A stretch of 38,118 bases of DNA, from the IMG/VR virus record IMGVR_UViG_3300047311_000833, positions 1 to 38,118 of that record; one strand, given 5' to 3'. The first letter of the stretch is position 1; the number at the start of each line of letters is the position of its first letter. The notes below the pieces were generated by a model. The model made no database searches. It was given only the letters and a program-made list of their open reading frames with translations, and was not told the DNA's origin. A program made the position numbers and the translations under genes. Source of the DNA: a virus. Below are positions 1,672-37,840 of this stretch, one piece after another.

Positions 1672-1683
1672 TAAGAGGTCAAA

Positions 1684-2204: not shown

Positions 2205-2213
2205 GAGGATAAT

Positions 2214-2746: not shown

Positions 2747-2753
2747 GGATGAA

Positions 2754-2948: not shown

Positions 2949-2949
2949 T

Positions 2950-3819: not shown

Positions 3820-3875
3820 CCGTCTGCTGTATTGTAATATAGGGACTTTAACTTAATTCTTCTGAAGGATGGATT

Positions 3876-6386: not shown

Positions 6387-6412
6387 TATCAATTAACTAG
6401 CATTGGATAAAG

Positions 6413-6811
6413 ATGAAAGGCACAATACTTCTCAATTATAGTGATGATACTCGTCAAGTTGAGGACGAAGAAAAGGCTAGATTTCTGCGTGGAATTCTAT
6501 TTGCCAGCTTCGAAAACACTGACGTAGCAACCCAAATTGAAACAATTTGGAGTTCGGATGGGCCTTTGCCAGCCTCCCAAAAAGTAAAATTGAGAGGTAT
6601 CCTCGCTACTTACGGTATTCAGGTTATAGATGATCTTGATGGCCACATGCAGATATACTTAGAAAATGAGTTGATCGCTGAGTGGTACAAGTGCACCTAT
6701 AAACTAAAGAGAGACCTGCGTGCTATAGATCCGCGAAAGCGTATTTATCTTGAAATGGAAGTCAATTGTTGGTCAGTCTTTGACGACAAAGAGGAACAAG
6801 AGATAGAATGA
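6413..6811 (+). CDS. Conserved-looking phage hypothetical protein
   Basis: 132 residues, no named domain. The C-terminal half (LRGILATYGIQVIDD..., LENELIAEWYKCTYKLKRDL..., ending MEVNCWSVFD) resembles, from memory, a small protein seen in other large phages; no search could be run. It overlaps the downstream PIN-PhoH gene by four bases (ATGA), so the two are probably made together, and it could be a partner of that ATPase. SD-like GGATAAAG precedes the start. Confidence 0.7.
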   Translation: MKGTILLNYSDDTRQVEDEEKARFLRGILFASFENTDVATQIETIWSSDGPLPASQKVKLRGILATYGIQVIDDLDGHMQIYLENELIAEWYKCTYKLKRDLRAIDPRKRIYLEMEVNCWSVFDDKEEQEIE

Positions 6812-8118
6812 GAAAAACTTACGTACTTGACACTAGTACTTTGATCACCGATCCCGTAGCATATAAATCTTTTCCACACAGCGATGTGGTAATTCCAATG
6901 GCTGTTCTTAATGAACTTGATAAGTTAAAGAAAGGCGCAAGCGAAGCTGGCAAAAATGCCAGAGTTGCTATTAGATTGCTTGATGAGATTTGCGATAGAG
7001 GCGATATCAGTATGGGTATTCTATTGGATGACGATATTATGCTCAGCATAGACGCCAACTATATTGATTGCTCCCAGCCCCCATATCTAGGGTTTGGAGA
7101 TCCAAATTATGGTGACACCCAAATTCTAGCTTGTTTACAATCACACTGGCAGGGCCACCCTGAGCGCGATGTATCATTGATCAGCAATGATATCAACTTG
7201 CGTGTAAAGGCCAAGGCTCGCTCTATTGATGCTGAGAAGCATGAAAAAGACGGCCACTCTCTAAGCGATTTGTACCCAGGATTCCAGGTCATTTCTGATG
7301 AGGATGCTGGCGTTGCTTTGCAGCAGGACGGTAAGATTGATCCACGTTGTTTTAACATTCATCTCAACCCAAACGAGTGTGTTCTTTTCCTAGCAGATAA
7401 CGGTGATGGTATCTGCATGGGCCGTAAGGTTGCCACAGACTGTGTCAAGTTGGTTCGCAAGAACTATCCTTGGAATGTCTCCAGCCGTAACAAAGAACAG
7501 ACTTTTGCCATTGACCTAATCATGGATAGAAATATCGATTTGATTACGCTAATTGGTAAGGCCGGAACTGGTAAAAGCTTAATTGTATTGGCTACTGCTC
7601 TAGAGCTTGTTCTGAACAAGAAGGAATACGATAAGTTCATTATCTATCGTCCAATTCAGCCAGTTGGAAATGACATTGGTTATTTGCCAGGCACTATGGA
7701 AGAGAAACTAGCTCCATGGTTTACTGCTATTATGGACAATTTTGAAATGCTTTTCGCTACTAAAAATGGTGGTGATTGGAAAAGAAATCTCGAAATGTAC
7801 CAGAAAAATGGTAGAATTGAGATGGAAGCCATTACCTACATCCGTGGACGTAGTATTCCAAACGCTATTATCCTAGTAGATGAGTGCCAGAACCTAACCA
7901 AAGAAGACGTGAAAACCATCCTCACTCGTGCTGGAGAAGGCACTAAAATCATCTTGACTGGTGATATAGAACAGATCGATAATTCGCTACTAGATGCTAC
8001 CAGTAACGGATTAACCCATGTAATCGAGAAGTTTAAAGACTCTGAGCTGGCTGGTCATATTACCTTCACTCAGGGTGAGCGTAGCAAGTTGGCCACTAAA
8101 GCCGCTGAAATTTTGTAA
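6808..8118 (+). CDS. phoH: PIN-domain PhoH-like ATPase
   Basis: 436 residues with two domains. Residues 1-145 are a PIN-type nuclease domain with the expected acidic residues: D8 in VLDTS, E36 in NELDKL, D103 in GDTQI and D128 in SNDINLR. Residues 225-436 are a PhoH P-loop ATPase with Walker A GKAGTGKS (250-257), YRPIQPVG, LPGTMEEKLAPW, Walker B ILVDE (355-359) and TGDIEQID. The PIN-PhoH fusion (PhoH2/YlaK type) is known as an RNA helicase/ribonuclease in bacteria. PhoH genes are very common in phages, where their role is still unclear. All catalytic positions look intact, so an active RNA-processing enzyme is likely. Confidence 0.92.
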   Translation: MRKTYVLDTSTLITDPVAYKSFPHSDVVIPMAVLNELDKLKKGASEAGKNARVAIRLLDEICDRGDISMGILLDDDIMLSIDANYIDCSQPPYLGFGDPNYGDTQILACLQSHWQGHPERDVSLISNDINLRVKAKARSIDAEKHEKDGHSLSDLYPGFQVISDEDAGVALQQDGKIDPRCFNIHLNPNECVLFLADNGDGICMGRKVATDCVKLVRKNYPWNVSSRNKEQTFAIDLIMDRNIDLITLIGKAGTGKSLIVLATALELVLNKKEYDKFIIYRPIQPVGNDIGYLPGTMEEKLAPWFTAIMDNFEMLFATKNGGDWKRNLEMYQKNGRIEMEAITYIRGRSIPNAIILVDECQNLTKEDVKTILTRAGEGTKIILTGDIEQIDNSLLDATSNGLTHVIEKFKDSELAGHITFTQGERSKLATKAAEIL

Positions 8119-13783: not shown

Positions 13784-15715
13784 ATGAGCGGAATTTTAAC
13801 TCCAGGATACCTAAGGTGGGATGGCACCAAATACGTTTTAGACAACGATGTTGAAATCGTTGGTCCGGCGGGATCCCAAGGTCCATCTGGTCCGGCGGGT
13901 CCAGCAGGTCCGCCAGGTCCTAATGGCGTAGCCAGCGGTGATTTACTGGGAAATTATCCCGGCCCTATCGCTGTTGTTGGTCTAACTGGTATTACTGGTA
14001 TCGTCAACTTCGGCGCTACCATTACAAACCCTACGATTTCCCAAGCCGCTACAGGATCTACTCTTGGCCAGCCGCTAACAATCAAGGGCCAAACTGGCGC
14101 AACTATTGGTGGCGCTGTTGTTTTGCAAAGCGGAACAGCAACCACGGCTGGTATTATTCAGTTTTTAGTAGGCTCTATTCAGGCCGGTTTTTTTGATGCT
14201 AACTCTGCTTTAAGATTAGGCCCAAGCGCTTCTTCTACAATTCCATCAGGTCCAAACGGTTCAGCCCCAGTTGCAGGAACTGATTTCCTGTATGGTTACA
14301 ATGCTAGCGGTAGTATGTGGGGCGAGTTCTTTACTAGCTCCAATGCTGACAGAGCTGCTATGGGCGTTTATAATAGTGGACTTGGCACTACCAATGTAAA
14401 CGGTATCAGTATCCAAGGAGTTGGATCTACTTACTCTGTTGGTGCTTACCAAAGAAACGGCGTAATTGAGCAGGCCGGCCCCGCCACCTCTGGTTTGATT
14501 TTATCTAAAGTTCTGGGCGATGGTACCAGCCGCGCCATTACTGGACGTATTTGGCAAACTGGTGCTTGGTGTGTTGGCGACAATGGCATCAATGATACCT
14601 CTGCCGAGGCCCAGGCAGTTTCTGGCGCTTTGATCAATCTTTCACCAGCAAACTTTGGTATTGTTGGTGGCGGCACAATTAATCTAGTAACAGGATCACT
14701 TAGCGGCCAGACAACTGTTGGCGGTCAAACGATCATGTATAATGCTGTCAATACCAGCAACTCGTTTGGAAACTTGGTTTTGCAAGGAAATCTTGGCGTA
14801 GATTTCGTTGCAGCAACTACTGTTGCAGCCACCATTAATACCACCAAACTTACTAACCAAGTAGGTAGAACTCATAAAGTACGTAGTACAACTACAACTC
14901 CGGTTACCATTATCACTACTGATGAAATTGTTTCTATCGGAGCGGTTTCCAGCGTAAGCACAACTGTTGCAGCGGGCTCTAACGGAGCTATTTTACCACA
15001 GGGTACGATTAACGTAGCCTCCACAACAGGATTTGCAAGCACCGGCGCTATCTATGTTACAACCACTAATGGTCCACAACTAGTTACTTACACTGGTACG
15101 GGCGCAACAACTTTCACAGGATGTTCTGGTGGAACGGGCGCAATGACTACTGGTAATGCTGTTACCAGCTTGTTTGCTATCAATTTACCTTCTACACCAA
15201 CTACAGGAGACTTGTACACAGTTAAAGATGCAAATGCTAGCTGTGGCGCAACTAACTTCTTTGTTTCAGGTAATGGTGTTAATATTGATGGACAGACTGG
15301 TATTGTGTTGTCTACAAACTTCGCTCAAGCTACGTTTGTTTACAATGGTACTACATGGATTTCCTCACTATCGAACAACCTAATACCAAACGGATTTTCT
15401 TCGGTTATAAGCGTACCTAGCAGCGGAGTTGCAACTGTAGTTGGATTCGACCAGCTATTACTTTGTGACCCAACATCAGGTGGTGTCACAGTAAATGCGC
15501 CTCCTAGCCCGTTAGCAAACTTAAGATTTACTGTCAAAGATGCTACATCACAAGCCACTTCTTTGAAGCCAATTATCGTTAATGGAAATGGTAGACTTTT
15601 GGAAGATCCTGGTAATCCAGGTTTTTATACATCAACTGTCATCATTACTGCAGCATCTAGGTCAGTAACTTGGGCTTACGATCCTTCAACTAGAAATAGA
15701 TATACGGTGGTATAA
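13784..15715 (+). CDS. Collagen-repeat tail fibre protein
   Basis: 643 residues. A short N-terminal head (TPGYLRWDGTKYVLD) is followed by seven Gly-X-Y triplets (residues 27-47, GPAGSQGPSGPAGPAGPPGP), a collagen-like stalk known to trimerise phage fibres. Then comes GDLLGNYPGPIAVVGL, a fibre repeat, and a long beta-rich Gly/Ser/Thr region. Near residue 380 starts a fibre-tip type domain (VTIITTDEIVSIG..., INLPSTPTTGDLYTVKDAN). It is interrupted by one complete copy of module 1 (14960-15166). The C-terminus is NRYTVV. SD GAGGATAC. A receptor-binding or decoration fibre is the most likely role; the stop overlaps the next start (TAATG). Confidence 0.85.
   Translation: MSGILTPGYLRWDGTKYVLDNDVEIVGPAGSQGPSGPAGPAGPPGPNGVASGDLLGNYPGPIAVVGLTGITGIVNFGATITNPTISQAATGSTLGQPLTIKGQTGATIGGAVVLQSGTATTAGIIQFLVGSIQAGFFDANSALRLGPSASSTIPSGPNGSAPVAGTDFLYGYNASGSMWGEFFTSSNADRAAMGVYNSGLGTTNVNGISIQGVGSTYSVGAYQRNGVIEQAGPATSGLILSKVLGDGTSRAITGRIWQTGAWCVGDNGINDTSAEAQAVSGALINLSPANFGIVGGGTINLVTGSLSGQTTVGGQTIMYNAVNTSNSFGNLVLQGNLGVDFVAATTVAATINTTKLTNQVGRTHKVRSTTTTPVTIITTDEIVSIGAVSSVSTTVAAGSNGAILPQGTINVASTTGFASTGAIYVTTTNGPQLVTYTGTGATTFTGCSGGTGAMTTGNAVTSLFAINLPSTPTTGDLYTVKDANASCGATNFFVSGNGVNIDGQTGIVLSTNFAQATFVYNGTTWISSLSNNLIPNGFSSVISVPSSGVATVVGFDQLLLCDPTSGGVTVNAPPSPLANLRFTVKDATSQATSLKPIIVNGNGRLLEDPGNPGFYTSTVIITAASRSVTWAYDPSTRNRYTVV
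13862..13924 (+). repeat. Collagen-like Gly-X-Y repeat
   Basis: Seven consecutive Gly-X-Y codon triplets rich in Pro and Ala (GPA GSQ GPS GPA GPA GPP GPN). The DNA is built from near-identical GGTCC[G/A]GC[G/A] units, so this stretch may change length by slippage or recombination. Confidence 0.9.
14960..15166 (+). repeat. Module 1 copy inside the collagen fibre
   Basis: 69 residues, AGSNGAILPQGTINVASTTG onward to FTGCSGGTGAMTTGNAV. It lies between DEIVSIGAVSS and FAINLPSTP, which look like consecutive parts of one fibre domain, so the module appears to interrupt that domain. Closely similar to the - strand copies at 23843-32637. Confidence 0.85.
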
Positions 15716-16752
15716 TGACTTTTACTTTTCCACAATGGGCAACAGCTCTAGATTTAGATTTTACTACACTACCAGCTCAATCACTGGCCTCAGATACTAC
15801 TTTCACAGTAGGTAGCAGCCCTATCTTTGGAACTGGTCTTGTATGGACTAAAGTAAATTCTGCCAGTGATGCTTCAGCCATGAACATAACTAATGGTTCT
15901 GGTCTGATAATTACTCCCAACGCAGCCAGCAATGTAAGCGGCGCTACCTTTACTGCGCCCGCTCTAAGAATACAGCTTAACAGCATTATCCCTGACTGGA
16001 CTGTATTCATGCCATTCAGGATTTGGATATGGGAATCAGCCTCCAATGAAGCAGCTAATAACGATAAGTTGTTCTTTGGAACTTACATACCAAACGGCGC
16101 ATTTCAAAACCAATTAACTCTAGGACACTGGAGAGGATTTGGCGGAGCTACCAATGGTTGGGGTTCTCAATTTACCGTTCTCAATACTGATGTCACTACT
16201 ACTGGTACAAGTATTCCATTATCTGCAAATAGAGTTGGTGTAATGTACTGCCCAATGGGAGTATTAGGAGGCAGCTCGCCTCTGATAGTAGGAAGTACTG
16301 TAACGACAACTACTACAACTATCACTGCAGGATCAAACGGAGTAGCTATTAATGGTGCCACAACTATCAACGTAGTATCCACAGCAGGATTCTCTTCTTC
16401 GGGCATTATCAACGTTACAAGTACTACTGGTAGTAATATCATTGCTTATACTGGCATTACTGGCACGTCATTTACAGGATGTACTAGTGGTAGTATCGTA
16501 CCACTCACTGGTACGATGTCCACTGGTGGTTTCGTTAGTTTTGGAACCTGGCCCCCAACAAATTCACTAACTATCTGTAATGGTGCCGCAATCACTTCAG
16601 CATCTTCTGCGGCCTTCTCTAGTACAGCCAGCGGTTCACATACGGTTACAGAAAACAACCTCTTTCTATCTGCTTTTAGAAACGGCAGCGGCACTGCTTT
16701 TTCTACTACAATTGCTAGAATCAGAGTGGACTACTTGCCAACATTTAATTAA
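15715..16752 (+). CDS. Putative fibre or adhesin-like virion protein
   Basis: 345 residues, beta-rich, beginning MTFTFPQWATALDLDFTTLP. The first 200 residues resemble a concanavalin-like jelly-roll by pattern (TVFMPFRIWIWES, QLTLGHWRGFGG, NRVGVMYCPMG), but no signature is strong enough to name. Residues about 200-275 are a diverged module 1 copy. The C-terminal part (SLTICNGAAITSASSAAF...) may continue the sandwich. The start overlaps the stop of the collagen fibre gene (TAATG), so both are probably made from one message and may form one fibre complex. Confidence 0.7.
   Translation: MTFTFPQWATALDLDFTTLPAQSLASDTTFTVGSSPIFGTGLVWTKVNSASDASAMNITNGSGLIITPNAASNVSGATFTAPALRIQLNSIIPDWTVFMPFRIWIWESASNEAANNDKLFFGTYIPNGAFQNQLTLGHWRGFGGATNGWGSQFTVLNTDVTTTGTSIPLSANRVGVMYCPMGVLGGSSPLIVGSTVTTTTTTITAGSNGVAINGATTINVVSTAGFSSSGIINVTSTTGSNIIAYTGITGTSFTGCTSGSIVPLTGTMSTGGFVSFGTWPPTNSLTICNGAAITSASSAAFSSTASGSHTVTENNLFLSAFRNGSGTAFSTTIARIRVDYLPTFN
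16315..16536 (+). repeat. Module 1 copy, diverged
   Basis: AGSNGVAINGATTINVVSTA then GFSSSGIINV...AYTGITGTSFTGCTSG. It carries a longer loop after FTGC (SIVPLTGTMSTGG) than the other copies and lacks the LPQ motif. Confidence 0.75.
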
Positions 16753-23749: not shown

Positions 23750-26671
23750 TTATGGTGTTAGTCCGGCGCAACCATTCCACTGTAGGTAGATTCCGTTCTG
23801 CAAATGTAGATATCGTGAACATCCATTGCTTACTCCAGATGAAACTACTCCACCTGTTGACATAACTCCAGTACCACCAGTACATCCTGTAAACTGCGTA
23901 GCATTGGTTCCAGTATAGCTTACAGTGGAAACTCCAGTAGAGGTAGTTACAAAAATAATTCCACTTGTAGGGAATCCAGTTGTAGAGCCTACATTGATAG
24001 TAGCCTGTGGCAGAGTGGCGCCGTTAGAACCAACTGCAATATTTGTGGTTCCTGTAAAAGTGCCATTACCAACCGATCCGTTCAAGGTAAAGTTTGTACC
24101 ATTAATGACAGTGATAACCCAAGTACCATTGGCGGCTGTGTTACCCAAAACACCGGAGATGGTAACAGTTTGTCCAGTCACTAATGCATTGGTCAATCCT
24201 GTAGTAATTTGAATTGGTGTTACGTTGGTAGCTGCAGTTATTGTTCTTGTAGTTGTTTCTTCTGAGCTAAGTGAAAAAGTAGCGAAATTGGTTCTTCCAT
24301 TTCTAAGAAATGGAGCAGTGCCCATGAATTTATGATCTACTGAAAACGCATTACCAATTCCTGGTAGAGCTAGTGCAACGTCAGCAAGTGGGGCTGCCCA
24401 AGTTTCAATTGGCAGCAGTTCGGTAGTTCCAGTAAATGGAGAGTCTCCTGCATTTGCTGATAGTAATGGGCTAGTAGCTGAAGTACCATCCAAATTTGCC
24501 CATCCAGTTAATGCTGACAGTTCAGGTAGACCGTTTTTTATACAGTTACCTATATTGAGGGTTGATCCGGTTCTCAAAATTATTGTACCTGAATCGGTAG
24601 TTGGCGCGCCTCCATACAGGAATAATCTCTCTAAATTACTTGGTGTTGGTACCGGCTCATTATCTGAGATTCCAAACGTTAACATACCATTATTTGTTGC
24701 ACCAAGGGTTCTAGTGTACATAAAGACGTTTTGACCAGAACTCTCTCCCATTATTGTCATACGAGAGGCTGTGCTATCAGTTCCTAGTCCAGGAATAGTG
24801 TTATTATAAGATGTATTGACGCTTGGGTTAAAGTTCAAATACTCTACTATATTAGTGGTGGCGCTAAGCAAAGGGAATTCACCATTAGAAATTCCGCCAT
24901 ATCCTACGGCCGCCGATATACGTGGCAGGTTAGTAATTTCTGGTTCAGCGCATAGTCTAATTTGCCATCCAGAGGGATGTGGGCTTTGATAGATAGCCCT
25001 GCTGTTTGCAGCTACTGAAGCTCCGCCCAAATAACCAAACAGTACGGCGGTTCCGGTAGCACCACCAGCCGCATTTGCTACCGATCCATTTAGGGCAAAT
25101 GATGTTGAACCGGCCTGAGTAATAGTCCAGGTTCCGTTTGCGTTAGTGTTAGTGGCATGCCCAGCAATAGTAACTTGTTGCCCCGTAATCCAGGTGTGTG
25201 GAAAGTTACTATTAGTCTGAACAATGATTGGATTATTAACCGCACCACCAGTAGACATGGTGCCAGTGCCCCCTGAGCAACCAGTAAATTGTGTACCGCC
25301 AGCAACTCCAGTATAAGTAACAATCTGAGGCCCATTGCTTGTGGTAACGTTTATTACTCCTGGGTTAGGAAAGCTTGTCGTTGAAGCAACGTTGATAGTA
25401 GATTGTGGAAGCGATTGTCCATTAGATGCAACAGCGATAGTTGTATTGAAAGTATTGGATGAGCTACCAACACCAAGCCCTCCAGCAGTGTCATTCTGAG
25501 CAAATTTAACCATGTAGCCAGAAACTACTGTTTCAATTTCATATAGCCACCAGTTAAGAGAATTAGATTCAGCCGGAGGTGTATCAGTAGAGCGATAATC
25601 GATTACATATCTGTTTAAGTTGCTAACTGGGGCTCCAGTTGCCAATGTTCCAACACCACCTGTACATCCAGTAAAACTAGTGGCAGTTGTATTGGTATAA
25701 CTAATTGTCTGAATTGGATTTGAATTTGTAACTGACCCACCAATAGTCATTGTACCAGTACCACCTGTACATCCTGTAAAGCTGGTGGCAGTTGTATTGG
25801 TGTAAACAACTGTATTTAATCCTGTGCTGGTAACTACAAAGATAATTCCAGATGTAGGGAAACCAGATGTCGAAGCTACGTTAATAGTGGCCTGCGGTAA
25901 AATGGCTCCGTTGGAACCTGCTGCAATAGTTGTTCCAGTTGCAATATTTATAGTTCCAGATGTTGGGAAACCTGTCGTAGAGACTACGTTGATGGTAGCC
26001 TGCGGTAATGCTGCTCCGTTGGATGCAGCAGTGACAGTTGTGGTGTTGCCCAAATTGACGGCTGAGATTTTGAAGATTCCAGAGTTTTTAGTTGGGAAGT
26101 TAGGGCTTTTCAAAACAAGCGTCTTACCTACATCTGTTGCAGCTACTTGTTTTCTAGCAACAGGAATGGCTACTTCGTAAATGAATCCTGCGCCAAAATT
26201 AATGCTAGCAGCATAACCATCAGCAACTGAACCAGCGGCGTATTGAAACCCTGAAGTCATAGTACCTGAATTGGCGTTGTATGCTCCAGTTCCGTAGCTT
26301 CCATAAAGAGTAAACTGTGTTGGACTTAAAACAATTACTTTCCAACTTCCATTTGCGCCGGTGTTACCGGTTGCTCCAGAAATATTCACAACATAGCCGT
26401 CTATTAAACCATGTGCAAGGGGCGTTGTTACTACGATAGGCGTAGTGAAAGTGGCTGTAGCTATTGGTAGTGATTTGACGTTGGTATTATCTATATTCCA
26501 AGATGTTTGACCAACATTAGTGAATCCCAATATCTTAGTTAAGAACAAACTAAGATGATAAATAATAGGAACGTAAAACCTATTTTGATTAGCACCCCAC
26601 GAACCACCCCATGGCTGTGCAATGTAGCTAGCATTTAGTGGGCTATAATCTCTTGAAATAAACGTTACCAT
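23750..26671 (-). CDS. B-family surface protein B1 with four module 1 and three module 2 copies
   Basis: 973 residues from the ATG at 26671; an 18-codon upstream extension lies inside A1 and is rejected because TAATG links the two genes. The backbone matches B2 and B3: FISRDYS at the start, a LGFTNVGQTSWNID segment, NSGIFKISAV, YVIDYR, PSGWQIRLC, FGISDNEPVPTP and, at the C-terminus, NGRTNFATF and LQNGIYLQWNG. Into this backbone are inserted module 2 (near the N-terminus), two nested module 1 copies, a module 1 plus module 2 block, and a final module 2 plus module 1 block. It is thus twice as long as B3. Function unknown; exposed fibre or shell protein likely. Confidence 0.8.
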   Translation of the reverse strand: MVTFISRDYSPLNASYIAQPWGGSWGANQNRFYVPIIYHLSLFLTKILGFTNVGQTSWNIDNTNVKSLPIATATFTTPIVVTTPLAHGLIDGYVVNISGATGNTGANGSWKVIVLSPTQFTLYGSYGTGAYNANSGTMTSGFQYAAGSVADGYAASINFGAGFIYEVAIPVARKQVAATDVGKTLVLKSPNFPTKNSGIFKISAVNLGNTTTVTAASNGAALPQATINVVSTTGFPTSGTINIATGTTIAAGSNGAILPQATINVASTSGFPTSGIIFVVTSTGLNTVVYTNTTATSFTGCTGGTGTMTIGGSVTNSNPIQTISYTNTTATSFTGCTGGVGTLATGAPVSNLNRYVIDYRSTDTPPAESNSLNWWLYEIETVVSGYMVKFAQNDTAGGLGVGSSSNTFNTTIAVASNGQSLPQSTINVASTTSFPNPGVINVTTSNGPQIVTYTGVAGGTQFTGCSGGTGTMSTGGAVNNPIIVQTNSNFPHTWITGQQVTIAGHATNTNANGTWTITQAGSTSFALNGSVANAAGGATGTAVLFGYLGGASVAANSRAIYQSPHPSGWQIRLCAEPEITNLPRISAAVGYGGISNGEFPLLSATTNIVEYLNFNPSVNTSYNNTIPGLGTDSTASRMTIMGESSGQNVFMYTRTLGATNNGMLTFGISDNEPVPTPSNLERLFLYGGAPTTDSGTIILRTGSTLNIGNCIKNGLPELSALTGWANLDGTSATSPLLSANAGDSPFTGTTELLPIETWAAPLADVALALPGIGNAFSVDHKFMGTAPFLRNGRTNFATFSLSSEETTTRTITAATNVTPIQITTGLTNALVTGQTVTISGVLGNTAANGTWVITVINGTNFTLNGSVGNGTFTGTTNIAVGSNGATLPQATINVGSTTGFPTSGIIFVTTSTGVSTVSYTGTNATQFTGCTGGTGVMSTGGVVSSGVSNGCSRYLHLQNGIYLQWNGCAGLTP
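23843..24043 (-). repeat. Module 1 copy, B1 C-terminal site
   Basis: 67 residues: AVGSNGATLPQATINVGSTT then GFPTSGIIFVTTSTGVSTV, YTGTNATQFTGCTGGTGVM. Directly preceded in the protein by module 2. The corresponding place in B2 has module 2 only, and in B3 nothing. Confidence 0.9.
24044..24244 (-). repeat. Module 2 copy, B1 C-terminal site
   Basis: TITAATNVTPIQITTGLTNA then LVTGQTVTISGVLGNTAANG, WVITVINGTNFTLNGSVGNG. This pattern (ITTA.PH.LxTGxxVxISGVxGNTAANGxWxVxVxxxTxFxLxGSxGNG) is the phage tail module often labelled E1-FCCH-like. It lies next to the module 1 copy ending at 24043. Confidence 0.85.
25034..25237 (-). repeat. Module 2-like copy, B1 middle site
   Basis: FPHTWITGQQVTIAGHATNT then NANGTWTITQAGSTSFALNG. 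It follows a module 1 copy here, the reverse order of the C-terminal site. Boundaries approximate. Confidence 0.7.
25238..25444 (-). repeat. Module 1 copy, B1 middle site
   Basis: 69 residues, AVASNGQSLPQSTINVASTT then SFPNPGVINVTTSNGPQIVT, FTGCSGGTGTMSTGGAV. Absent from the equivalent place in B2 and B3, where the backbone runs straight from the WYLY segment to PR(L/I)(I/M)LQS. Confidence 0.9.
25619..26044 (-). repeat. Nested module 1 pair in B1
   Basis: The outer copy is split: its 5' part is 25934-26044 (37 residues, ending FPTSGTINIATG) and its 3' part is 25619-25720 (34 residues, starting NPIQTISYTNT). Between them lies a complete 71-residue copy (25721-25933). Joining the two outer parts gives 71 residues with the same spacing from FPTSG to FTGC (31 residues) as the inner copy. 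Confidence 0.85.
26238..26463 (-). repeat. Module 2 copy near the B1 N-terminus
   Basis: TPIVVTTPLAHGLIDGYVVN then ISGATGNTGANGSWKVIVLS, PTQFTLYGSYGTGAYNANSG. B2 and B3 have no copy at this place (SVGTLLIATGDTTPTVAP instead). Boundaries approximate. Confidence 0.8.
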
Positions 26672-28410
26672 TATGTACCTAAAGGTAGAAGACCATAAGG
26701 CAATAGTGAGCCGTCCCACGGCCACAAAATGCCATTGCCTACGTGTATAAATTCCCCATTATTGCCAAAGAGGTGGAAGCTTGGGAATACTGAGCTTGTG
26801 AAAGCAATCGTACGTAGCCTCCCTCTAGTTAGACAATATTGTCCGGCAGTTGCGACAGTAGAGATAATAGCATCAGAAATAATAGCCTGACCAAGCCTGT
26901 TCTGAATAGCTAATATACCAGATAAATTAGGCCCTATGGTGTAGGCGGTGCCAGTTACACCATCTCCTGCAAAATTTTTAGTCATCAACTGATTCGCTCT
27001 GGTTGTTCCGTCGGTTCCTACCATAAAGAAAGCGGTAGACAACGAATCAGTTGCTACTGCAGTAGTTAGATTATTTGCTCCAACTAGAATGGCCATTGGA
27101 TTTGGATCTTGGGCTTGGGAATATAGTCTTGTTGGCGTAATTATGTTGAAGTAGTGTCCGGTAGTAGTATTGGAGTTAGGGGATCTGATATGGCCAATGA
27201 AAAAATCTTGGTCGGCAATTAATGTTGCGACCCCTATTACGCCAGAAGTTACGCCGCTAAAAGTATTGGCGGTAGCTGTTGTTCTTTCTGTAATGGTAGC
27301 GCTGGCACCACCTGGTGATACGAAGGCTGAAACGTTATTCCAAGTTGCAGTTGGTGAGCCAAGAATTCCAAAAAGACCAAATGCATTTGCGGCTCCTCTT
27401 AGGAAGAATTGAAACTGGCTAATAGATTGTCCAGAATTTACATTTGCTGGACCAAACATTGTTCCAACTAAATAATTACCGTTGGCAACTGCTAGCTGTG
27501 ATGCCGCAATCAGATCAATTACTTTGTAGTTAAGATTTGATCTAGAGGTAATGTTATTTTTCTGTGTAGAGATATCTGGGGTTCCACCACTAAATGGTGA
27601 TAGCACTATTTGAGTGTTACTATTAACTGCGAGTATTCTGTAAATAGCATCATCCGTACTAATTGATCCAGAAGTGACACCACCATTAGTTGACATTAAT
27701 CCTGTACCGCCCGTGCATCCAGTAAAGCTGGTAGGATTTAAATTGGTATATGCAACTACCTGAGTTCCAGTGCTAGTTGCTACATAAATGGTTCCGCTAC
27801 TTGGAAAGTTGGTAGTGCTGTTTACGTTAATAGTGCCTTGTGGTAAGGTTAATCCGTTTGAAGCTGGGGTTATTAAAGTTGAGGAACCGTTAGACCATAT
27901 TACTACATGCTTTCCAATCATTGCTGATGTGAATGGTATAGATGCACTAGTGGTTAAAGTGGCCCCTAAGGCAGATGTTGATCCATCATTACCGGCCGCC
28001 AGAACAGAAGCGCCTTCAAAAAAACCAGCCGGTACGCTAGTACCGTTTGGAGGAATGGCGCCAGGAACCATTACTATAGCGTTAGGAGAGGTAGTAAAAT
28101 TCGCGTTACCAGTTGCTCCATTTAAATTGAATGTATTGGTACCAGTTACAGTAACAAGCCAACCACCATTTGCATTAGTGTTACCCTGAACGCCATATAC
28201 GCCAACTATTTGATTGCTAACCAATCCATGGGGATTGGAAGTTGTAATGTTGATTGGGTTTGCATTAGAAGCCTGCGTAATTGTTAAGACTGGATTGAAT
28301 CCATTTACACAGTATCCCCAGAATTCATAACACAACTTCATAAAGATAGGGATATCCCTTCCATTTGTGCCGGTCGTGTATTGTAATCCTCTGAGATATT
28401 TCCTAGCCAT
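26671..28410 (-). CDS. A-family surface protein A1 with module insertions
   Basis: 579 residues. It shares with A2 and A3 the start KYLRGLQY...LCYEFWGYCVNG, a middle signature LIADQDFFIGHIRSPN and LYSQAQDPNP, and the end FHLFGNNGEFIHVGNGILWP. The backbone is interrupted by module 2 near residues 45-110 and by module 1 between VIWSNGSS and STDDAIYRI, where A2 and A3 read (A/P)GS.SSED.LY. SD AAGGAAA. The stop overlaps the B1 start (TAATG). Virion surface role is likely by context; no enzymatic motif seen. Confidence 0.8.
   Translation of the reverse strand: MARKYLRGLQYTTGTNGRDIPIFMKLCYEFWGYCVNGFNPVLTITQASNANPINITTSNPHGLVSNQIVGVYGVQGNTNANGGWLVTVTGTNTFNLNGATGNANFTTSPNAIVMVPGAIPPNGTSVPAGFFEGASVLAAGNDGSTSALGATLTTSASIPFTSAMIGKHVVIWSNGSSTLITPASNGLTLPQGTINVNSTTNFPSSGTIYVATSTGTQVVAYTNLNPTSFTGCTGGTGLMSTNGGVTSGSISTDDAIYRILAVNSNTQIVLSPFSGGTPDISTQKNNITSRSNLNYKVIDLIAASQLAVANGNYLVGTMFGPANVNSGQSISQFQFFLRGAANAFGLFGILGSPTATWNNVSAFVSPGGASATITERTTATANTFSGVTSGVIGVATLIADQDFFIGHIRSPNSNTTTGHYFNIITPTRLYSQAQDPNPMAILVGANNLTTAVATDSLSTAFFMVGTDGTTRANQLMTKNFAGDGVTGTAYTIGPNLSGILAIQNRLGQAIISDAIISTVATAGQYCLTRGRLRTIAFTSSVFPSFHLFGNNGEFIHVGNGILWPWDGSLLPYGLLPLGT
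27676..27879 (-). repeat. Module 1 copy in A1
   Basis: TPASNGLTLPQGTINVNSTT then NFPSSGTIYVATSTGTQVVA, FTGCTGGTGLMSTNGGV. Sits in a loop that is continuous in A2 and A3. Confidence 0.88.
28077..28287 (-). repeat. Module 2 copy in A1
   Basis: NANPINITTSNPHGLVSNQI then VGVYGVQGNTNANGGWLVTV, NTFNLNGATGN. Inserted after WGYCVNGFNPV, where A2 and A3 run on into VPGGF. Boundaries approximate. Confidence 0.78.
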
Positions 28411-28998: not shown

Positions 28999-31266
28999 TT
29001 ATGGAACTACTGCCGGGCCATTCCATGGCATGTAAATGCCTCTTCTCATATGCTGAAAAGAAGCCCCTCTCAAAACAGTACCGCCACCACCGAAAGTTCC
29101 ATTTCCAGTTGTGCCATTTAAAGTAAACTGAGTGTTGTTGATAACACTTACGGTGAACGTACCATTGGCGGCTGTATTTCCAGTCACACCACTGATAGCC
29201 ACAATCTGTCCAGTTACTAGAGTATTAGTGGTCGTGGTAGTTATTTGAATTGGTGATACACCGTTACCTGATGTAGTGGAGACAGACCAAGATCCAGTAT
29301 CTGTTGCAAGCACAAAGTCTCCAAAGTTTGTTCTACCACTTCTGATAAAAGGTAATGTACCTATTACTCTTGGTTCATATGGAAATGCTTGTGTAGAAAT
29401 AGCATTATCCCAAGTTTGAGTTACGCCACTGACCAAATCTACTGGCAGCACTTCAGTGGACGAAGTCCATGGACTATCTCCTGCTTGAGCATCAAATGCT
29501 GGACCTGCGAATTGGTTATTTCCAGTAACATAAGCTAGTATGGCCGGGCTACAGGATTTAGGACCAAAATTATACAGCGACATAGTGGCGCCCTGAATTG
29601 CGCCGTTAGTACCGTGGCCTACTTGAAGACAAATATCATTAAGACGGCTGTTTCCTACGTTGTTACTGTACGCATTACCTAAACAGTATAGTCTGCCTAC
29701 ATTATCTAGTGGAAATGGGAAAGGCTCATTGTCTGGGAATCCAAAAGTCAGGTAGAAAGCTGGAGGTGAAGTTGCATTCAACGGTCTTCTGGCAAATATA
29801 TGTACTGATTGTCCAGTATCATCTCCCACCATAGTATATCTATACTGTGGACCAGTACCTGCATTGTCACCGCAGCCTATACCAGTATTGAAAATTTCAT
29901 TTGATGTATCATAGTATAAACCACCATGAAGATGCCTTCCATTTGTAGAAAAATCTCCTATAGAGCTACCAACAAATCCTGGGGCAAAAGTTATGGCCGA
30001 TGTTATAAAAGTAGTCTGTGTATCAGTCGAAGTCTCATTACAAATTCGAACTTGCCATCCAATTGCATGTGGGCTTTGAAGTATTAGTCTTGGAGTTGTT
30101 GAGTTTCCACTTCCCCTATATTGACCGGCACTTGATGTATTAACAGCTCCATTGACAGGACAGTTAATGTCTTTATCATATAGATACCAAGGTACTGTAT
30201 CTGCCGCCTCTACTAACGCCGTGTCACCATTTCCCCTATAGTCTATGACAAATTTGTTCTGGTTGTAAACGGGTTCTCCAGTTATTAGCGTGCCAGTTCC
30301 ACCAGTACATCCCGTAAACTGCGTAGCGTTTGTGTTAGTATACGTTATGGTTTGAATGTTGTTGGAGCTAAAAACTGTGCCTCCAACAAATAGGAAATTG
30401 GTTAGCCCTGTGCATCCAGTAAAAGTTGAAGCTGTAGTTCCAGTATATGTAATAGTCTGAACTCCACTCAAAGTAAGCATATTTAGACTTCCAGTAGCTG
30501 GAAATCCTGTGGTTGAAGCAACAGTAAGAAGACTTGCCGCCTGTACCGTATTACCCGTGTTAATTACTCCGGTGCCGCCAGTACAGCCAGTAAGGTTTGC
30601 ACCAGAGACTCCAGTGTAGCTAACAAGTTGTACGCCAGTAGTAGATTGAATCAAAGCGCTACCGGTGGGTTGCTGTAAGTTTGCAATGTTGCTTATGTTG
30701 ATAGTGCCAGTAGGTAGTGTTAATCCGTTAGATCCAGAAGCAACCGATACGTTAGTAAAAGGATTAGATGTAGTATTAGGCCCCACGAAAAAAGTTCCGC
30801 TAGTTGGAAATCCAGTTGTAGAGCCTACGTTGATGGTGCCGGTTGGTAAAGCAACGTTATTAGATCCTGAAGCAATTGTTGTTGCGTTTCCTTGTTGTAA
30901 CGATGAAATCAAAAAGATTCCAGAGTTTCTGAATGGATATAATGGACTTTTAAATACAAGTATTCTTCCAACATCTGACGGGATAACGCCACGCACACCT
31001 ACTGGAATAGAAATTTCAATAGCCGCACCGTTGTTAGCAATACCCGCTTTACTATTTCCTGGGAAAGTTGGAGCAACCGTTGGGGTCGTATCTCCAGTAG
31101 CAAATAAATACTGTCCTACACCGTTGATGTTAAAATTAGTATCTCCAACATAACTATAGCCTAAGGTTCTGCGTAGAAAAATAGCTGTCAAATAGGAAGA
31201 TATGTACTGCCTATTAGCTGTCGTTGTATTTTGTGAGAGATAATCTCTTAGTAAGTGTGTAGCCAT
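28999..31266 (-). CDS. B-family surface protein B2 with three module 1 copies and one module 2
   Basis: 755 residues. Backbone shared with B1 and B3: LLRDYLSQNTTTANRQYISS, LGYSYVGDTNFNIN, ATGDTTPTVAPTFPG, NSGIFLIS, FVIDYRG, WYLYDKD, LILQSPHAIGWQVRICNE, FGFPDNEPFPFP and the end FQHMRRGIYMPWNGP. Between NSGIFLISSLQQGN and NKFVIDYR lies a 207-residue block of module 1 material, where B3 has only about five residues. Before FQHMRRG a module 2 copy has been added. Likely exposed structural protein. Confidence 0.8.
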   Translation of the reverse strand: MATHLLRDYLSQNTTTANRQYISSYLTAIFLRRTLGYSYVGDTNFNINGVGQYLFATGDTTPTVAPTFPGNSKAGIANNGAAIEISIPVGVRGVIPSDVGRILVFKSPLYPFRNSGIFLISSLQQGNATTIASGSNNVALPTGTINVGSTTGFPTSGTFFVGPNTTSNPFTNVSVASGSNGLTLPTGTINISNIANLQQPTGSALIQSTTGVQLVSYTGVSGANLTGCTGGTGVINTGNTVQAASLLTVASTTGFPATGSLNMLTLSGVQTITYTGTTASTFTGCTGLTNFLFVGGTVFSSNNIQTITYTNTNATQFTGCTGGTGTLITGEPVYNQNKFVIDYRGNGDTALVEAADTVPWYLYDKDINCPVNGAVNTSSAGQYRGSGNSTTPRLILQSPHAIGWQVRICNETSTDTQTTFITSAITFAPGFVGSSIGDFSTNGRHLHGGLYYDTSNEIFNTGIGCGDNAGTGPQYRYTMVGDDTGQSVHIFARRPLNATSPPAFYLTFGFPDNEPFPFPLDNVGRLYCLGNAYSNNVGNSRLNDICLQVGHGTNGAIQGATMSLYNFGPKSCSPAILAYVTGNNQFAGPAFDAQAGDSPWTSSTEVLPVDLVSGVTQTWDNAISTQAFPYEPRVIGTLPFIRSGRTNFGDFVLATDTGSWSVSTTSGNGVSPIQITTTTTNTLVTGQIVAISGVTGNTAANGTFTVSVINNTQFTLNGTTGNGTFGGGGTVLRGASFQHMRRGIYMPWNGPAVVP
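29080..29290 (-). repeat. Module 2 copy in B2
   Basis: SPIQITTTTTNTLVTGQIVA then ISGVTGNTAANGTFTVSVIN, NTQFTLNGTTGNG. Located between NFGDFVLATDTGS and FQHMRRG; in B3 these two parts are nearly contiguous (NFGDFSPSTDAARSFQHMRRG in meaning, with no module). Boundaries approximate. Confidence 0.85.
30262..30882 (-). repeat. Multiply nested module 1 block in B2
   Basis: Outer copy: 5' part 30754-30882 (ASGSNNVALPTGTINVGSTT...) and 3' part 30262-30363 (NNIQTITYTNTNATQFTGCT...). Between them are inner copy 1 (30535-30753, VASGSNGLTLPTGTINISNI...) and a shortened inner copy 2 (30364-30534) that starts at LLTVASTTGFPATG and lacks the GSNG..LP head. The nesting point matches that in B1. Confidence 0.8.
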
Positions 31267-31275
31267 TTATAACCT

Positions 31276-32835
31276 TTAGAATGGGAATAGGGTGTATGGT
31301 AGAACTGATTTATCCCATGGTATTGCCACGCCCTGCGTTATGAGAATAAAGTCTCCTGAACTAGTGTTAAATCTGGTAAACTGCGGCATGAAAATGTTAG
31401 CGAATCTAACTCTTCTCAATCTTACTCTTGCTAGTGAGTATTGTCCAGCCACACCTGGGAGCGTTAAAAATCCTGGTGAGTTCAGCAGGTTACCAGTAAC
31501 CGCATTTGCTCCGGCCCTAAAATCATCCAAATTATTACCTGGAGTATCGGCTGCAGTTGTTAGCGACAAGTTAGCGTTTCCATCTCCTGATAGCGATCTA
31601 ACAGAGCACCTATGTGTTCTAGCAGTACCATCATTACATTTCATAACCCAACCACCACCATAAGTATGGGTAGTAGAGGTAGATGGAAATTGTACGGCCG
31701 TACCAAATCCATTGAAATTAACTACTACTGGATTTGGATCTTGTGCTAATGTATATAACCTGTCTGGTATTTCTAGATGGAATACTATACCTGGTGTACC
31801 CTGCGGATTATTTGTATCCCTATAGTGTCCAATTAGAAAATCCTTATCTCCAATAAGTGTTATCTGTTGTGTTGTTCCTCCAGAGCTTCCGTTAAAAAAA
31901 GTATTAGTAGAGACTGTATTGGGCGCAGTTTGTGTTGTCGCATCACTAAAAGTAGTTCCGTTCCAGGTGCCAGCAGGAGATATCCTATGATCAATTCTTC
32001 CGTTTGTTGAAGCAATAATTAGCTGGACTTGTGAATTGGCCTGTCCAGCATTTACTCCAGTTGGATCAAATTGCATAACCATAAAGTTACCGTCTGCAAC
32101 GCCTGTAGTGGCACCAGAAATACCCATATCAACTACTCTATAGTTGATGGAGGTTCTATTGGTGAAGGAAGGTTTATATCCATCTGGAGCGCTTGGAGTG
32201 CCACCATTATTTACGTTAACTTGAATTTGTGTTGGCGATACAAATCCAATGATATTGTATAGCCCATCTTCTGAAGAACCAGATCCCGCCTTCCATGTAA
32301 CTAAAGTTTTACCAACCATTGCCGATGTAAATGGTTGAGAGGCGGCAAAGAAATTCTGAGTGCCGCTAAATTGGAAGTTAGTAGTTTGATTTGTGTATCC
32401 GTCATTTCCAAATGTTAGCAGACTTGGGCTGGTTACGTTATTTCCTGTGGACATAACTCCGGCACCACCAGAGCATCCTGTAAATGTATTACCAACTATA
32501 TTAGTGTAAGTAACTGTTTGGGTACCCAAAGTGGTGAAGACATAAATGGTTCCGCTGGCAGCGAACCCAGTAGTAGATGCTACTGCAATAACTGCTTGTG
32601 GCAAAGTCTGTCCGTTAGAACCAACTGCGATGGTTGTGAAAAGACCCTGGAAGTCTCCGGGCAAACCACCACCAAACGGAGTAGTTGTCGCAAAACCACC
32701 TGGGACAGTTAAGGAAGCCGTGCCGTTAATAGAGTATCCCCAGAATTCATAGATCGCTTTTAGAGGATAGGTTGCCTTAGGAGCACCGTTGGTAGTCCCA
32801 GTAAAAATTAGCGTTCTACAAAATTTTGTTGCCAT
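31276..32835 (-). CDS. A-family surface protein A2 with module 1 insertion
   Basis: 519 residues. A-family features: YPLKAIYEFWGYSINGT near the start, TLVTWKAGSGSSEDGLYNI, TLIGDKDFLIGHYRDTN, RLYTLAQDPNPVV, ARVRLRRVRFANIFMPQF and GVAIPWDKSVLPYTLFPF. One module 1 copy follows GDFQGLF in the N-terminal third, a different place from the A1 copy. SD GGGAGA. Nine bases separate it from B2. Function unknown, virion surface likely. Confidence 0.8.
   Translation of the reverse strand: MATKFCRTLIFTGTTNGAPKATYPLKAIYEFWGYSINGTASLTVPGGFATTTPFGGGLPGDFQGLFTTIAVGSNGQTLPQAVIAVASTTGFAASGTIYVFTTLGTQTVTYTNIVGNTFTGCSGGAGVMSTGNNVTSPSLLTFGNDGYTNQTTNFQFSGTQNFFAASQPFTSAMVGKTLVTWKAGSGSSEDGLYNIIGFVSPTQIQVNVNNGGTPSAPDGYKPSFTNRTSINYRVVDMGISGATTGVADGNFMVMQFDPTGVNAGQANSQVQLIIASTNGRIDHRISPAGTWNGTTFSDATTQTAPNTVSTNTFFNGSSGGTTQQITLIGDKDFLIGHYRDTNNPQGTPGIVFHLEIPDRLYTLAQDPNPVVVNFNGFGTAVQFPSTSTTHTYGGGWVMKCNDGTARTHRCSVRSLSGDGNANLSLTTAADTPGNNLDDFRAGANAVTGNLLNSPGFLTLPGVAGQYSLARVRLRRVRFANIFMPQFTRFNTSSGDFILITQGVAIPWDKSVLPYTLFPF
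32434..32637 (-). repeat. Module 1 copy in A2
   Basis: AVGSNGQTLPQAVIAVASTT then GFAASGTIYVFTTLGTQTVT, FTGCSGGAGVMSTGNNV. In A3 the flanking segments (VLPTNFTGG and LLATGTDGYHP) are joined directly. Confidence 0.88.
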
Positions 32836-32848
32836 TTATTGTCTCCCG

Positions 32849-34315
32849 TTATGGTATTATGTTTGGACCATTCCAAGGAATAAAGAGCCCACGTCTCATA
32901 TGCTGAAAAGAACGGGCCGCGTCAGTAGATGGCGAAAAATCTCCGAAGTTAGCTCTTCCTTCATAGACATATGGTATTGTTCCCATAAGTCTAGGTGCTA
33001 ATGGATAAGCCGGAATTGCTGAACCAGTGATAAATCCACCAGTATTCCATCCAGTTAAAGTTCCTGATATTAAATCAAGTGGGAGTAATTCTGTAGAACT
33101 AATAAATGGCGTATCAGAGGCAAAAGAATCAAGTTGTGGCCCAGTATTCTGGCCACCTCCAGTAATAAATGCCCAGAAAGAGGCGGCACACGCTACTGGG
33201 GCCCCAAATGTCGCAACACTCATTCCTTGTGAAACGTTATTTACGTTAATTATACTAGAAATAATACCCGCTTGTAGTCCCATATCATTAATTTCTCTAG
33301 CTCCAAAATTGTCAGAGCCCATAAATCCAGTTCCTATTGTAAACAATCTGGCCGCTGGATTAAGTGGTAGTGGCAACGGCTCATTGAATGGTAATCCAAA
33401 AACACATACAAATCCGGTTGGCTGTGTAGAGTTTCCAGGTCTTCTGGCAAACATTGCTGCGCCATATCCATCATCTCCGCCAATCATGGTAACCCTAAAT
33501 TGTGTACCGGTAGCACCACCACCATCACCTATGCCTGGCGCCCCTCCTAGATATTGGTTGCCACTAGAATCAGCCCACTGTGGAGCATGAGTGTGAGCCC
33601 CGCCGACAGTAAAATCACCAGCAACCGTTCCTCCAAAACCAAGAGCAACTGATGTGATAGGGCAATTCAATGAGTTAGGACCAGAAGCAAAATCAGCAGT
33701 ACTTTCATTACAAATTCTAACTTGGTAATTTATTGGGTGGTTACTCTGTAACATAATTCTAGGAGTAGTTGAGTTTCCATCACTTCTATATTGCGCAGCG
33801 GTTTTAAGAGTATTTCCTACGCCCTGAGTTGGGCAGTTAGTATCCTTTTCATAAAGATACCAGTTCATACTATCAGCAGGCTCTATAGGCGGTTTATCTC
33901 CTAGTGTTCTATAATCAATGATGTATGCATTGGTTGGAATATCAAAACCAACGATAGTGAATAGTCCAGAGTTAAAAGTTGGATTGCTTGTACTTCTCAA
34001 GACTAAAATTCTACCAACATCGAGTAAAGAAACGGTTCTTACGCTAACAGGAATTGAAACATAGAATTCTTTTTGCGATCCTAAGTTAATTCCAGCTTTT
34101 CTACCCACCCCGAATGTAGGGGCAACTGTTGGAGTTGTATCTCCGGTAGCAATTAACAATGTACCAACAGAATTTATGTTGAAATTAGTATCTCCAACAT
34201 AAGTAAATCCCAGTACTCTTCTCATAAAAATGGCAAGAATGTACGCATAAATGTAAGTTCTGTTACCGGTGGTAACATTCTGTGTCGTATAGTCTCTACA
34301 TAGATGTACTGTCAT
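32849..34315 (-). CDS. B-family surface protein B3, no modules
   Basis: 488 residues, the shortest B protein and probably closest to the ancestral backbone. HLCRDYTTQNVTTGNRTYIY, LGFTYVGDTNFNIN, LIATGDTTPTVAPTFGVGR, NSGLFTIVGF, AYIIDYR, WYLYEKDTNCP, PRIMLQSNHPINYQVRICNE, FGLPFNEPLPLP and the end FQHMRRGLFIPWNGP all align with B1 and B2. At every place where those carry module 1 or a C-terminal module, B3 has a short direct join. The function is not recognised. Preceded by A3 with a 9-base gap; SD AAGGT. Confidence 0.8.
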   Translation of the reverse strand: MTVHLCRDYTTQNVTTGNRTYIYAYILAIFMRRVLGFTYVGDTNFNINSVGTLLIATGDTTPTVAPTFGVGRKAGINLGSQKEFYVSIPVSVRTVSLLDVGRILVLRSTSNPTFNSGLFTIVGFDIPTNAYIIDYRTLGDKPPIEPADSMNWYLYEKDTNCPTQGVGNTLKTAAQYRSDGNSTTPRIMLQSNHPINYQVRICNESTADFASGPNSLNCPITSVALGFGGTVAGDFTVGGAHTHAPQWADSSGNQYLGGAPGIGDGGGATGTQFRVTMIGGDDGYGAAMFARRPGNSTQPTGFVCVFGLPFNEPLPLPLNPAARLFTIGTGFMGSDNFGAREINDMGLQAGIISSIINVNNVSQGMSVATFGAPVACAASFWAFITGGGQNTGPQLDSFASDTPFISSTELLPLDLISGTLTGWNTGGFITGSAIPAYPLAPRLMGTIPYVYEGRANFGDFSPSTDAARSFQHMRRGLFIPWNGPNIIP

Positions 34316-35915: not shown

Positions 35916-36881
35916 TTACACTAACCAAGTATCGAGAACCTCTGGGTTAGTATAGGGCCCAGTACATGGGAAAGCTGGTGCATTAGCTAGGGAAATTTGC
36001 GTATCTACCCAAACAACCGCAGTTGGAGTTGGGCAAGAAGTATCATAGGCTCTTAATTTGAAAAATTGATTAGCTGCTACCCTACCAGGTATTGTTGGAA
36101 GTGCGCCAGCTCCATAAACCGATTGAAAATATGAAAGCGGCCTGGCTACATTGGCAATCCTAACGTCCTGAATTTGAGCATTTGGCTCTTCTTTATTTGT
36201 AGAACCGGTTGCTGTAATGCCGCCAATTCTCCAAAACCCTGACCCATTGATTCCATCTGTGTAAGAGATGTTTCCTGCTGCCGTAGAATTTAGCTGTGTA
36301 GCTCCAGAGTAATAAATACACTGACAACCATTCAGATATGCACGGATAGCTGTTCCATCATGTGTTATTCCAATATGTGACCATGTTTGTAATGGAATGA
36401 GGAAATCTGTTACAGTAAGAATTACTTGAGTTGAAGAACTAGTAGCAATTTGAATGTACCAATCGCCACCTCCGTTAGTAGTCGCAACAGTTATGTTAAG
36501 TGCGTGGAAAGGAGTGCTCCATGCACTAGTGATACCAGAATCTCTATATTCTTTTCCTATTAGTGTCTGTTGATTAGCTGTCGTATACGATCTTAAATAT
36601 ACCCAAAGAGATACTGTAAGTGGCGGAGCAATTTGGATGGTTTTTGCACCAGCAGCGTAATTTCTGGTAGCAGATGAGCCGGTTGGGAAATTGGTGGTTC
36701 CGGGAAGTTGTGGGCAGTTTCCTCCAAAAAGACCCGCCCCAGTTCTAATAATTGTGTTTGTAATAGTAAGATCAGTAGTGGCACTGTTAGGAGAAAGTGA
36801 TCCCGTGTTTCTATATACTCCTGAAGTTTCATTCAGTAGCCAAACTATTTGGTCATTAATGTCTGGAGTTATTCTTGTCAT
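35916..36881 (-). CDS. LamG/concanavalin-like surface protein 2
   Basis: 321 residues. A LamG-type jelly-roll covers about residues 10-245: NDQIVWLLNETSG, PPLTVSLWVYLRS, LQTWSHIGITHDGTAIRAYL and QIQDVRIANVARPLSYFQ are the usual four signatures. Such domains bind glycans or proteins and are common in phage surface proteins. The last 60 residues (FFKLRAYDTSCPTPTAVVWV, then EVLDTWLV) form a separate tail, also found in the LamG gene upstream and in the C family. It lies two bases from the upstream LamG gene. Confidence 0.85.
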   Translation of the reverse strand: MTRITPDINDQIVWLLNETSGVYRNTGSLSPNSATTDLTITNTIIRTGAGLFGGNCPQLPGTTNFPTGSSATRNYAAGAKTIQIAPPLTVSLWVYLRSYTTANQQTLIGKEYRDSGITSAWSTPFHALNITVATTNGGGDWYIQIATSSSTQVILTVTDFLIPLQTWSHIGITHDGTAIRAYLNGCQCIYYSGATQLNSTAAGNISYTDGINGSGFWRIGGITATGSTNKEEPNAQIQDVRIANVARPLSYFQSVYGAGALPTIPGRVAANQFFKLRAYDTSCPTPTAVVWVDTQISLANAPAFPCTGPYTNPEVLDTWLV

Positions 36882-36883
36882 AT

Positions 36884-37840
36884 TTATCCTATTGTTTTCC
36901 AGGTTTCCAAAACCTCGATAGGCCCCAGCCCACTGCCACTTGGTGATGCTGGCGCTCCAGCGTATGAAATACTAGTTCCAACCCAGTAAACTGCGGTTGT
37001 TGTATATAGTACATCATAAGCCCTCATCTTATAGTAAGTAACTACAAGACCACCAGTTCCACTATAATTAAGTGTAGCATTTTGGTAGATGTTCTGAAAA
37101 TATGCTTGATTTCTAATAACGTTAGCAACTCTAACATCACAGTATCCAGCAGATGGTTCTTCTGGGCTTCCCGAGCCAGAAGGAATGGCGCCCATAAACC
37201 ATGGACCAGGGGTACCACTGTAAAATATATTTCCAGTTGGTGAGGCAACTACTGATGCAACATTGTTACCATTAATATAACTTAGTACTGTTGTTCCATC
37301 ATATGTTGCACCAACATGAGACCATGTATTGAGTGGTATATTAAAATCTTGTACTGCAATAGCCGATCCTCCAGCGCCAGAAGCGTTAGTTAAATAGAAA
37401 AAATCAAACTGGGTTGGTAAGCTAGCGAATTGTCTATTTTGAGCCATAGCTATTGAGCTAAAAGTAACTCCGCTCCATACTCCGGTTGTAGTCTGTTTAC
37501 ATACACCATGCTGTGTAAGCCCTGATGAATTATATGCTCTTTGGTAATACCAAAAAGATATTGTGATTGGAGGTTGTGGTAGAAAGTTGTTAGCACCGGA
37601 AATGAAATTTCTAGGGCTGCTGCTCTGGTTTCCTGAAAATTGAACTGCGCTATTTGGCCCGAATGGTGCGAACGGGCTAGGCTGTTGTGTAAATATAGTG
37701 CCAGAAATAGTAGCTAAGTCCGATACCAAATGTGATGGGGCAGATCCAGACGTTGATGAATTCACGAACGGAGCCGTTGCTTCATCTAATCTCCAAACTA
37801 CGATATCATTGTTATCTGGTGCTACTCTAATTCCTACCAT
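36884..37840 (-). CDS. LamG/concanavalin-like surface protein 1
   Basis: 318 residues, a paralogue of the 35916 gene. LamG signatures: NDIVVWRLDEATAPF, PPITISFWYYQR, LNTWSHVGATYDGTTVLSYI, YCDVRVANVIRNQAYFQ. The C-terminal tail is TYYKMRAYDVLYTTTAVYWV, then EVLETWKTIG. The jelly-roll probably recognises a host surface sugar, or decorates the particle (inference). No catalytic residues visible. Confidence 0.85.
   Translation of the reverse strand: MVGIRVAPDNNDIVVWRLDEATAPFVNSSTSGSAPSHLVSDLATISGTIFTQQPSPFAPFGPNSAVQFSGNQSSSPRNFISGANNFLPQPPITISFWYYQRAYNSSGLTQHGVCKQTTTGVWSGVTFSSIAMAQNRQFASLPTQFDFFYLTNASGAGGSAIAVQDFNIPLNTWSHVGATYDGTTVLSYINGNNVASVVASPTGNIFYSGTPGPWFMGAIPSGSGSPEEPSAGYCDVRVANVIRNQAYFQNIYQNATLNYSGTGGLVVTYYKMRAYDVLYTTTAVYWVGTSISYAGAPASPSGSGLGPIEVLETWKTIG

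Follow-up and report, generated by a model that had tools for sequence, protein, structure and literature searches.

Recursive nesting of a small module within its own copies in putative surface proteins of large phages

In gene B1 of a 38,118-base IMG/VR virus record (IMGVR_UViG_3300047311_000833, positions 1-38,118; the window), a complete 71-residue copy of a protein module, module 1, lies inside a second copy that is split at a single point. The sequence-only reading had placed this arrangement at 25619-26044, and a codon-level reading bears it out to the base, while a module 1 profile HMM built from 12 hand-chosen copies agrees with it. Read by codons, the outer 5' part (TTTVTAASNGAALPQATINVVSTTGFPTSGTINIATG; 26044-25934, 37 aa) is followed by the inner copy (TTIAAGSNGAILPQ...GGSVTNS; 25933-25721, 71 aa) and then by the outer 3' part (NPIQTISYTNTTATSFTGCTGGVGTLATGAPVSN; 25720-25619, 34 aa), and the profile HMM recovers, in order along the nest, positions 1-38, a full copy spanning positions 2-71, and positions 34-71. 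The further claim that the outer parts rejoin as 37 + 34 = 71 residues was upheld, the FPTSG-to-FTGC span of the rejoined copy being equal to that of the inner copy.

The start of B1 is probably the ATG at 26671 and less probably the GTG at 26725, as relatives begin at the matching methionine (MTIFVSRDY in L001). On the minus strand of the window, between 23750 and 35871, three A-type genes alternate with three B-type paralogues, and module 1 and a second module occupy different loops in each of them. Module 2 is an E1_FCCH-like domain (Pfam PF16190) of ~60-70 residues that is dispersed in the same genes and loops as module 1. Two neighbouring proteins with LamG/concanavalin-like lectin domains adjoin the cluster at 35916-37840, which suggests an adhesion or tail region. 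At 262-8118 lies a region of phage replication and metabolism, with genes for a DnaB-type helicase, a sigma factor, the large subunit of ribonucleotide reductase and a PIN-PhoH protein. The features of the window are as follows.

23750-26671, minus strand: gene B1 (973 aa), which hosts the nest
25934-26044, minus strand: outer module 1 of B1, 5' part (37 aa), from codon-level reading and profile HMM
25721-25933, minus strand: inner complete module 1 of B1 (71 aa), from codon-level reading and profile HMM; AlphaFold2 pLDDT 98
25619-25720, minus strand: outer module 1 of B1, 3' part (34 aa), resembling the outer 3' part of B2
25235-25447, minus strand: second module 1 copy of B1, within an E1_FCCH-like module 2 whose pieces flank it
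25043-25231, minus strand: 3' piece of the interrupted module 2 of B1, by comparison with the intact L092 copy
23837-24049, minus strand: third copy of module 1 in B1, located at a module 2 end
27670-27879, minus strand: module of gene A2, single and un-nested
30778-30885, minus strand: outer module 1 of paralogue B2, 5' part, split at the same point as in B1
30541-30747, minus strand: first inner copy of B2
30367-30531, minus strand: second inner copy of B2, without its first 16 residues
30262-30363, minus strand: outer module 1 of B2, 3' part, undivided in the window
32428-32637, minus strand: module 1 of gene A1, single and un-nested
33839-34048, minus strand: paralogue B3, counterpart of the B1/B2 nest site, holding no module (SGLFTIVGFDIPTNAYIIDYR)
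14960-15169, plus strand: module 1 in the gene at 13784-15715
16312-16539, plus strand: divergent module 1 in the gene at 15715-16752

Nested and un-nested sites in related genomes

A scan of IMG/VR for relatives of B1 returned four loci, and these include the un-nested version that had been proposed as a check on the nest. At the B1 nest site, the orthologues L001/L091 and L002/L092 (with L003 a near copy) have a single uninterrupted module, with identical flank motifs on either side (NxGN...NLNRYxxDYR), and no module is present in L004/L099 or in the window paralogue B3. The copy lodged in module 2 of B1 has an empty counterpart in L091, L092 and L099, with module 2 intact in L092, and L091 has the third B1 copy, for which the site is empty in both L092 and L099. 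The window, L091 and L092 all have a nest in paralogue B2, and in L091 and L092 the outer copy of B2 carries a further interruption at position ~50, a site that is empty in the window. Gene A2 is the cleanest series of empty, single and nested states, with no module in L091/L092, one in the window, and a nest at position ~50 in L094/L095/L096/L099. These comparisons were made without a rooting outgroup, so that gain and loss of modules at the sites are not always separable. The dN/dS ratio was ~0.1 between orthologous module copies and 0.3 between inner and outer copies.

To place the nest more broadly, IMG/VR was scanned with the module profile, giving 132 relatives, from which 78 loci were kept. 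About 11 nests were found, counted by site, mainly in one large-phage group (records of 200-480 kb and their fragments), with one nested contig of 21 kb (L064) beyond this group. Outer copies are interrupted at three points, at profile positions ~24, ~37 and ~50, and the inserts at these points are essentially whole modules. The deepest nesting is in the large A protein of three phage records of 210-480 kb, each encoding a protein of ~1255 aa in which module 1 reaches up to five levels of nesting by sequence reading:

L095, 1943-5707
L096, 1929-5699
L094, 1982-5761

In our reading, in which some fragments are weak (6-17 bits), these proteins form five levels that close in last-in-first-out order. 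When the break positions of opening and closing fragments were matched over the 11 nests, 16 of 200,000 permutations did as well as the observed pairing, some break positions being hand-set and the nests not all proven independent. The eight records surveyed for individual copies hold 125 copies or part-copies, most of them within one 20-30 kb cluster; all lie within ORFs of 350 aa or more and keep the reading frame, none being out of frame or antisense. A pattern search of IMG/VR for further closely spaced FTGC pairs recovered only an already known genome, and tblastn against INPHARED phages gave no match to B1, the module or the deeply nested protein, a search in which the low-complexity filter may hide some matches.

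Several smaller regularities accompany the nests. Where two copies stand in direct tandem, the second often begins without its first 10-16 residues (TTIAxGSNG), as at 30367-30531 of the window and in L092, L095, L096 and L099, as if this stretch were a dispensable linker. In nests split at position 37 (window B1 and B2, L091 B2, L095), the outer 3' parts end in GTLxxGxP, and whole copies usually end in GTMSTGGAV, which would reflect either common origin or structural need. The consensus module begins with TT and also contains TT close to each of the three entry points; the idea that inserts target Thr-Thr codons was suggestive but was dropped, as it held for only ~4 of 6 sites in proteins that are Thr-rich. 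Finally, a Cyanobium bin contig (BJHE01000012.1) and a viral contig (L108 and L034) have identical module copies, and the bin contig is therefore probably viral.

Fold of the module and its protein context

Given 103 module copies, AlphaFold2 modelled the inner module as one compact beta-domain with a pLDDT of 98. The three entry points fall between the strands of this model (16-19/29-35, 29-35/38-44 and 38-44/51-53), and all three are thus predicted to be loops between strands. The model of the nested segment reached a pLDDT of 48, its alignment being shallow and MAFFT pulling single modules onto the inner copy. Among BFVD entries, the module matched a Synechococcus phage Bellamy protein, the baseplate wedge initiator (TM 0.86 by query length, E 1.7e-3), as well as virion structural proteins and tail fibres. 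Matches to baseplate wedge or virion structural PHROG families (phrog_2885, best E 8.8e-6; phrog_22827, phrog_4406, phrog_9689 and phrog_708) had weak scores and were seen in 5-7 of 12 module copies. A PDB fold search gave weak matches only (Z <=7.2; V/F-ATPase N-barrel, phage tail tube, lambda tail tip and P22 coat), too weak for naming a fold family, and matches to a designed 'Pizza' propeller sequence were judged to be chance alignments of short partial repeats.

The sequence-only reading had described B1 as a structural gene of the virion surface. The module itself lends this some support through its weak matches to virion families, and other module carriers match tail spike and virion protein families; proteins A and B, on the other hand, match no PHROG family, and no Pfam family besides module 2. 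We therefore regard a virion-surface location of the A and B proteins as putative.

Origin of the nests

The B1 nest is present in one assembly only. No second record was found in IMG/VR with a degenerate pattern for the junctions, and the near-identical contig L070 ends short of B1 by position. L070 (IMGVR_UViG_3300046535_002106) carries at 3822-5756 a module copy that is identical in DNA to 14960-15169 of the window, and it is for this reason probably a very close relative of the window record. Occurrence in a single assembly is what an artefact of assembly or binning would predict, yet we give this explanation almost no credence: the inner and outer copies of B1 differ at 29% of bases in the 5' part and 26% in the 3' part, the reading frame through the nest is open, and equivalent nests occur in the independent assemblies L091, L092/L093, L094, L095, L096 and L099. 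Two tandem half-module duplications (A to AA and B to BB) could also mimic a nest, as in B1 alone AABB and A(AB)B read identically, and the two 5' parts resemble each other, as do the two 3' parts. This would however require two events with an identical break, and no AAB or ABB form is present among the relatives; it also leaves unexplained the outer copies cut at 24 or 50, or twice (L091 B2), with complete inserts, and the matching last-in-first-out order, and we consider it improbable. The sequence-only reading had instead raised a system that keeps inserting in-frame modules. Insertion does recur, into loops, into module 2 and into the module itself, but the proposal of an active or dedicated process did not hold up, as near-identical copies, element ends and target duplications were all lacking. 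A mobile element or diversification system that is dedicated to in-frame insertion and still active would account for a discrete unit with constant ends and many copies, and for its repeated insertion into itself and other domains. Against it, whole copies from the same genome are at most 72% identical in DNA, the copies are uniformly in frame and never antisense, and examination of the junctions of 10 inserts, which had been suggested as a check, gave no target duplication or terminal inverted repeat clearly beyond chance. RVT_1, for the reverse transcriptase expected of diversity-generating retroelements, and Y1_Tnp, the only mobility families sought, were not found in seven, possibly incomplete, records, of which five exceed 200 kb. 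Such an element is in our view very improbable.

How the nest in B1 itself arose is more evenly balanced. Recombination or gene conversion with the nested B2 may have supplied B1 with the whole nest or with its right-hand part; we put this at somewhat below even odds, and the outer halves would then differ in origin. B1 and B2 are split at the same point, and the outer 3' half of B1 has 78% amino acid identity to the outer 3' half of B2 versus 59% to the single modules of L091/L092. A 68-row tree places the outer copies of the two paralogues together at 98/81, and for the 3' half the B1 sequence clusters with the outer copies of B2 at 89/89 (not starred), although trees of 70 residues resolve few forks with copies so short and diverged; a topology that unites the 3' half with its positional orthologues is weakly rejected (p-AU 0.03-0.04). 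Other comparisons point away from B2: the inner copies of B1 and B2 are unlike, the outer 5' half is nearer to B1-type copies, its sisterhood with window B2 alone being rejected (p-AU 0.009), the outer 3' half is nearest in DNA to the B1 inner copy (74%), and orthology remains compatible with the AU test at full length (p 0.26). These sequence comparisons suggest that the 3' half of the outer copy is of B2 type and the 5' half is not. A tree in which the two outer parts do not come from one copy had been named as evidence against insertion of the repeat into its own copy, and this outcome was obtained in part. Self-insertion as a recurring event stands, and for B1 itself the claim is qualified by its B2-like 3' half; the outer halves of B1 may not derive from one local copy, the nests as a class being real. 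Given the identity tables, the tree and the AU tests on halves, we regard recombination with B2 and fresh insertion as about equally likely. The dS between inner and outer copies (0.81) is lower than that between window copies and their L091 positional counterparts (1.07-1.35), values near saturation, and this agrees with a nest formed after the L091 split.

Our favoured explanation, which we hold to be probable, is that module 1 is a self-folding beta-domain that occurs as a whole unit, and that nests arise from recombination together with selection on foldable inserts. In sequence comparisons, the module is present or absent as a whole in loops of paralogues and orthologues, in another domain, and in three loops of its own. 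In the putative virion or adhesion proteins of large phages, such a small self-folding domain would be duplicated at the DNA level through recombination, illegitimate or homeologous, between the numerous related copies of one gene cluster, as the absence of element features suggests. Only whole, in-frame inserts in loops that let both domains fold would then survive, and this selection alone could fix the insert ends and the three permitted entry points, which ordinary recombination plus selection for foldable inserts would then explain. The B1 nest would have arisen after the L091/L092 split, or have been carried in from the already nested B2, and larger and more varied exposed loops, as in phage adhesins, would be the likely use. 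That recombination-driven insertion is ongoing in large phages and generates surface-protein diversity, with the three module loops as landing sites, we consider unlikely.

Comparison with known systems

Rickettsia palindromic elements are in-frame repeats in coding genes. Module 1 shares with these elements its short, in-frame repeats within coding genes and differs in that neither terminal inverted repeats nor intergenic copies were found and in that it is predicted to fold as a domain. The E1_FCCH-like module 2 resembles module 1 as a domain of ~60-70 residues dispersed in the same genes, but belongs to a different sequence family and also serves as a host for module 1 (25235-25447). Like module 1, the promiscuous Ig-like domains of Hoc and tail proteins and the BACON arrays of crAss-like phages (PMC6949934) are small beta-domains whose presence varies among phage structural proteins. 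Ig-like and BACON domains are generally known as additions in tandem or at ends, whereas module 1 copies sit inside loops and inside each other.

The closest precedent for module 1 is the recursive insertion of HABAS, a sandwich-barrel hybrid motif that is inserted into HABAS in Si3 of the cyanobacterial RNA polymerase beta' subunit (PMC11515920), insertions that have been described as six-level recursion (PMC13114784). HABAS is not named among the PDB matches listed for module 1 (Z <=7.2), and homology to it is not claimed. By sequence reading, module 1 has the architecture of recursive self-insertion, in that a whole copy of the same family interrupts the host domain and, in L094/L095/L096, does so at more than one level. 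The phenomenon is already known from RNA polymerase, and no description of recursive self-insertion in phage proteins was found in the open-licence literature. Software that looks for repeats or domains reads such proteins wrongly, reporting tandem halves or truncated copies. As with HABAS in Si3, a small beta-domain is found recursively within its own copies in a lineage-specific manner, here in phage proteins rather than a cellular enzyme, and with paralogous genes and related genomes that show the empty, single and nested states. The known recursive case is a slowly evolving enzyme subunit, whereas the phages provide these three states at identical sites, and the rules of insertion, namely loops, ends and order, can thus be read from natural data.
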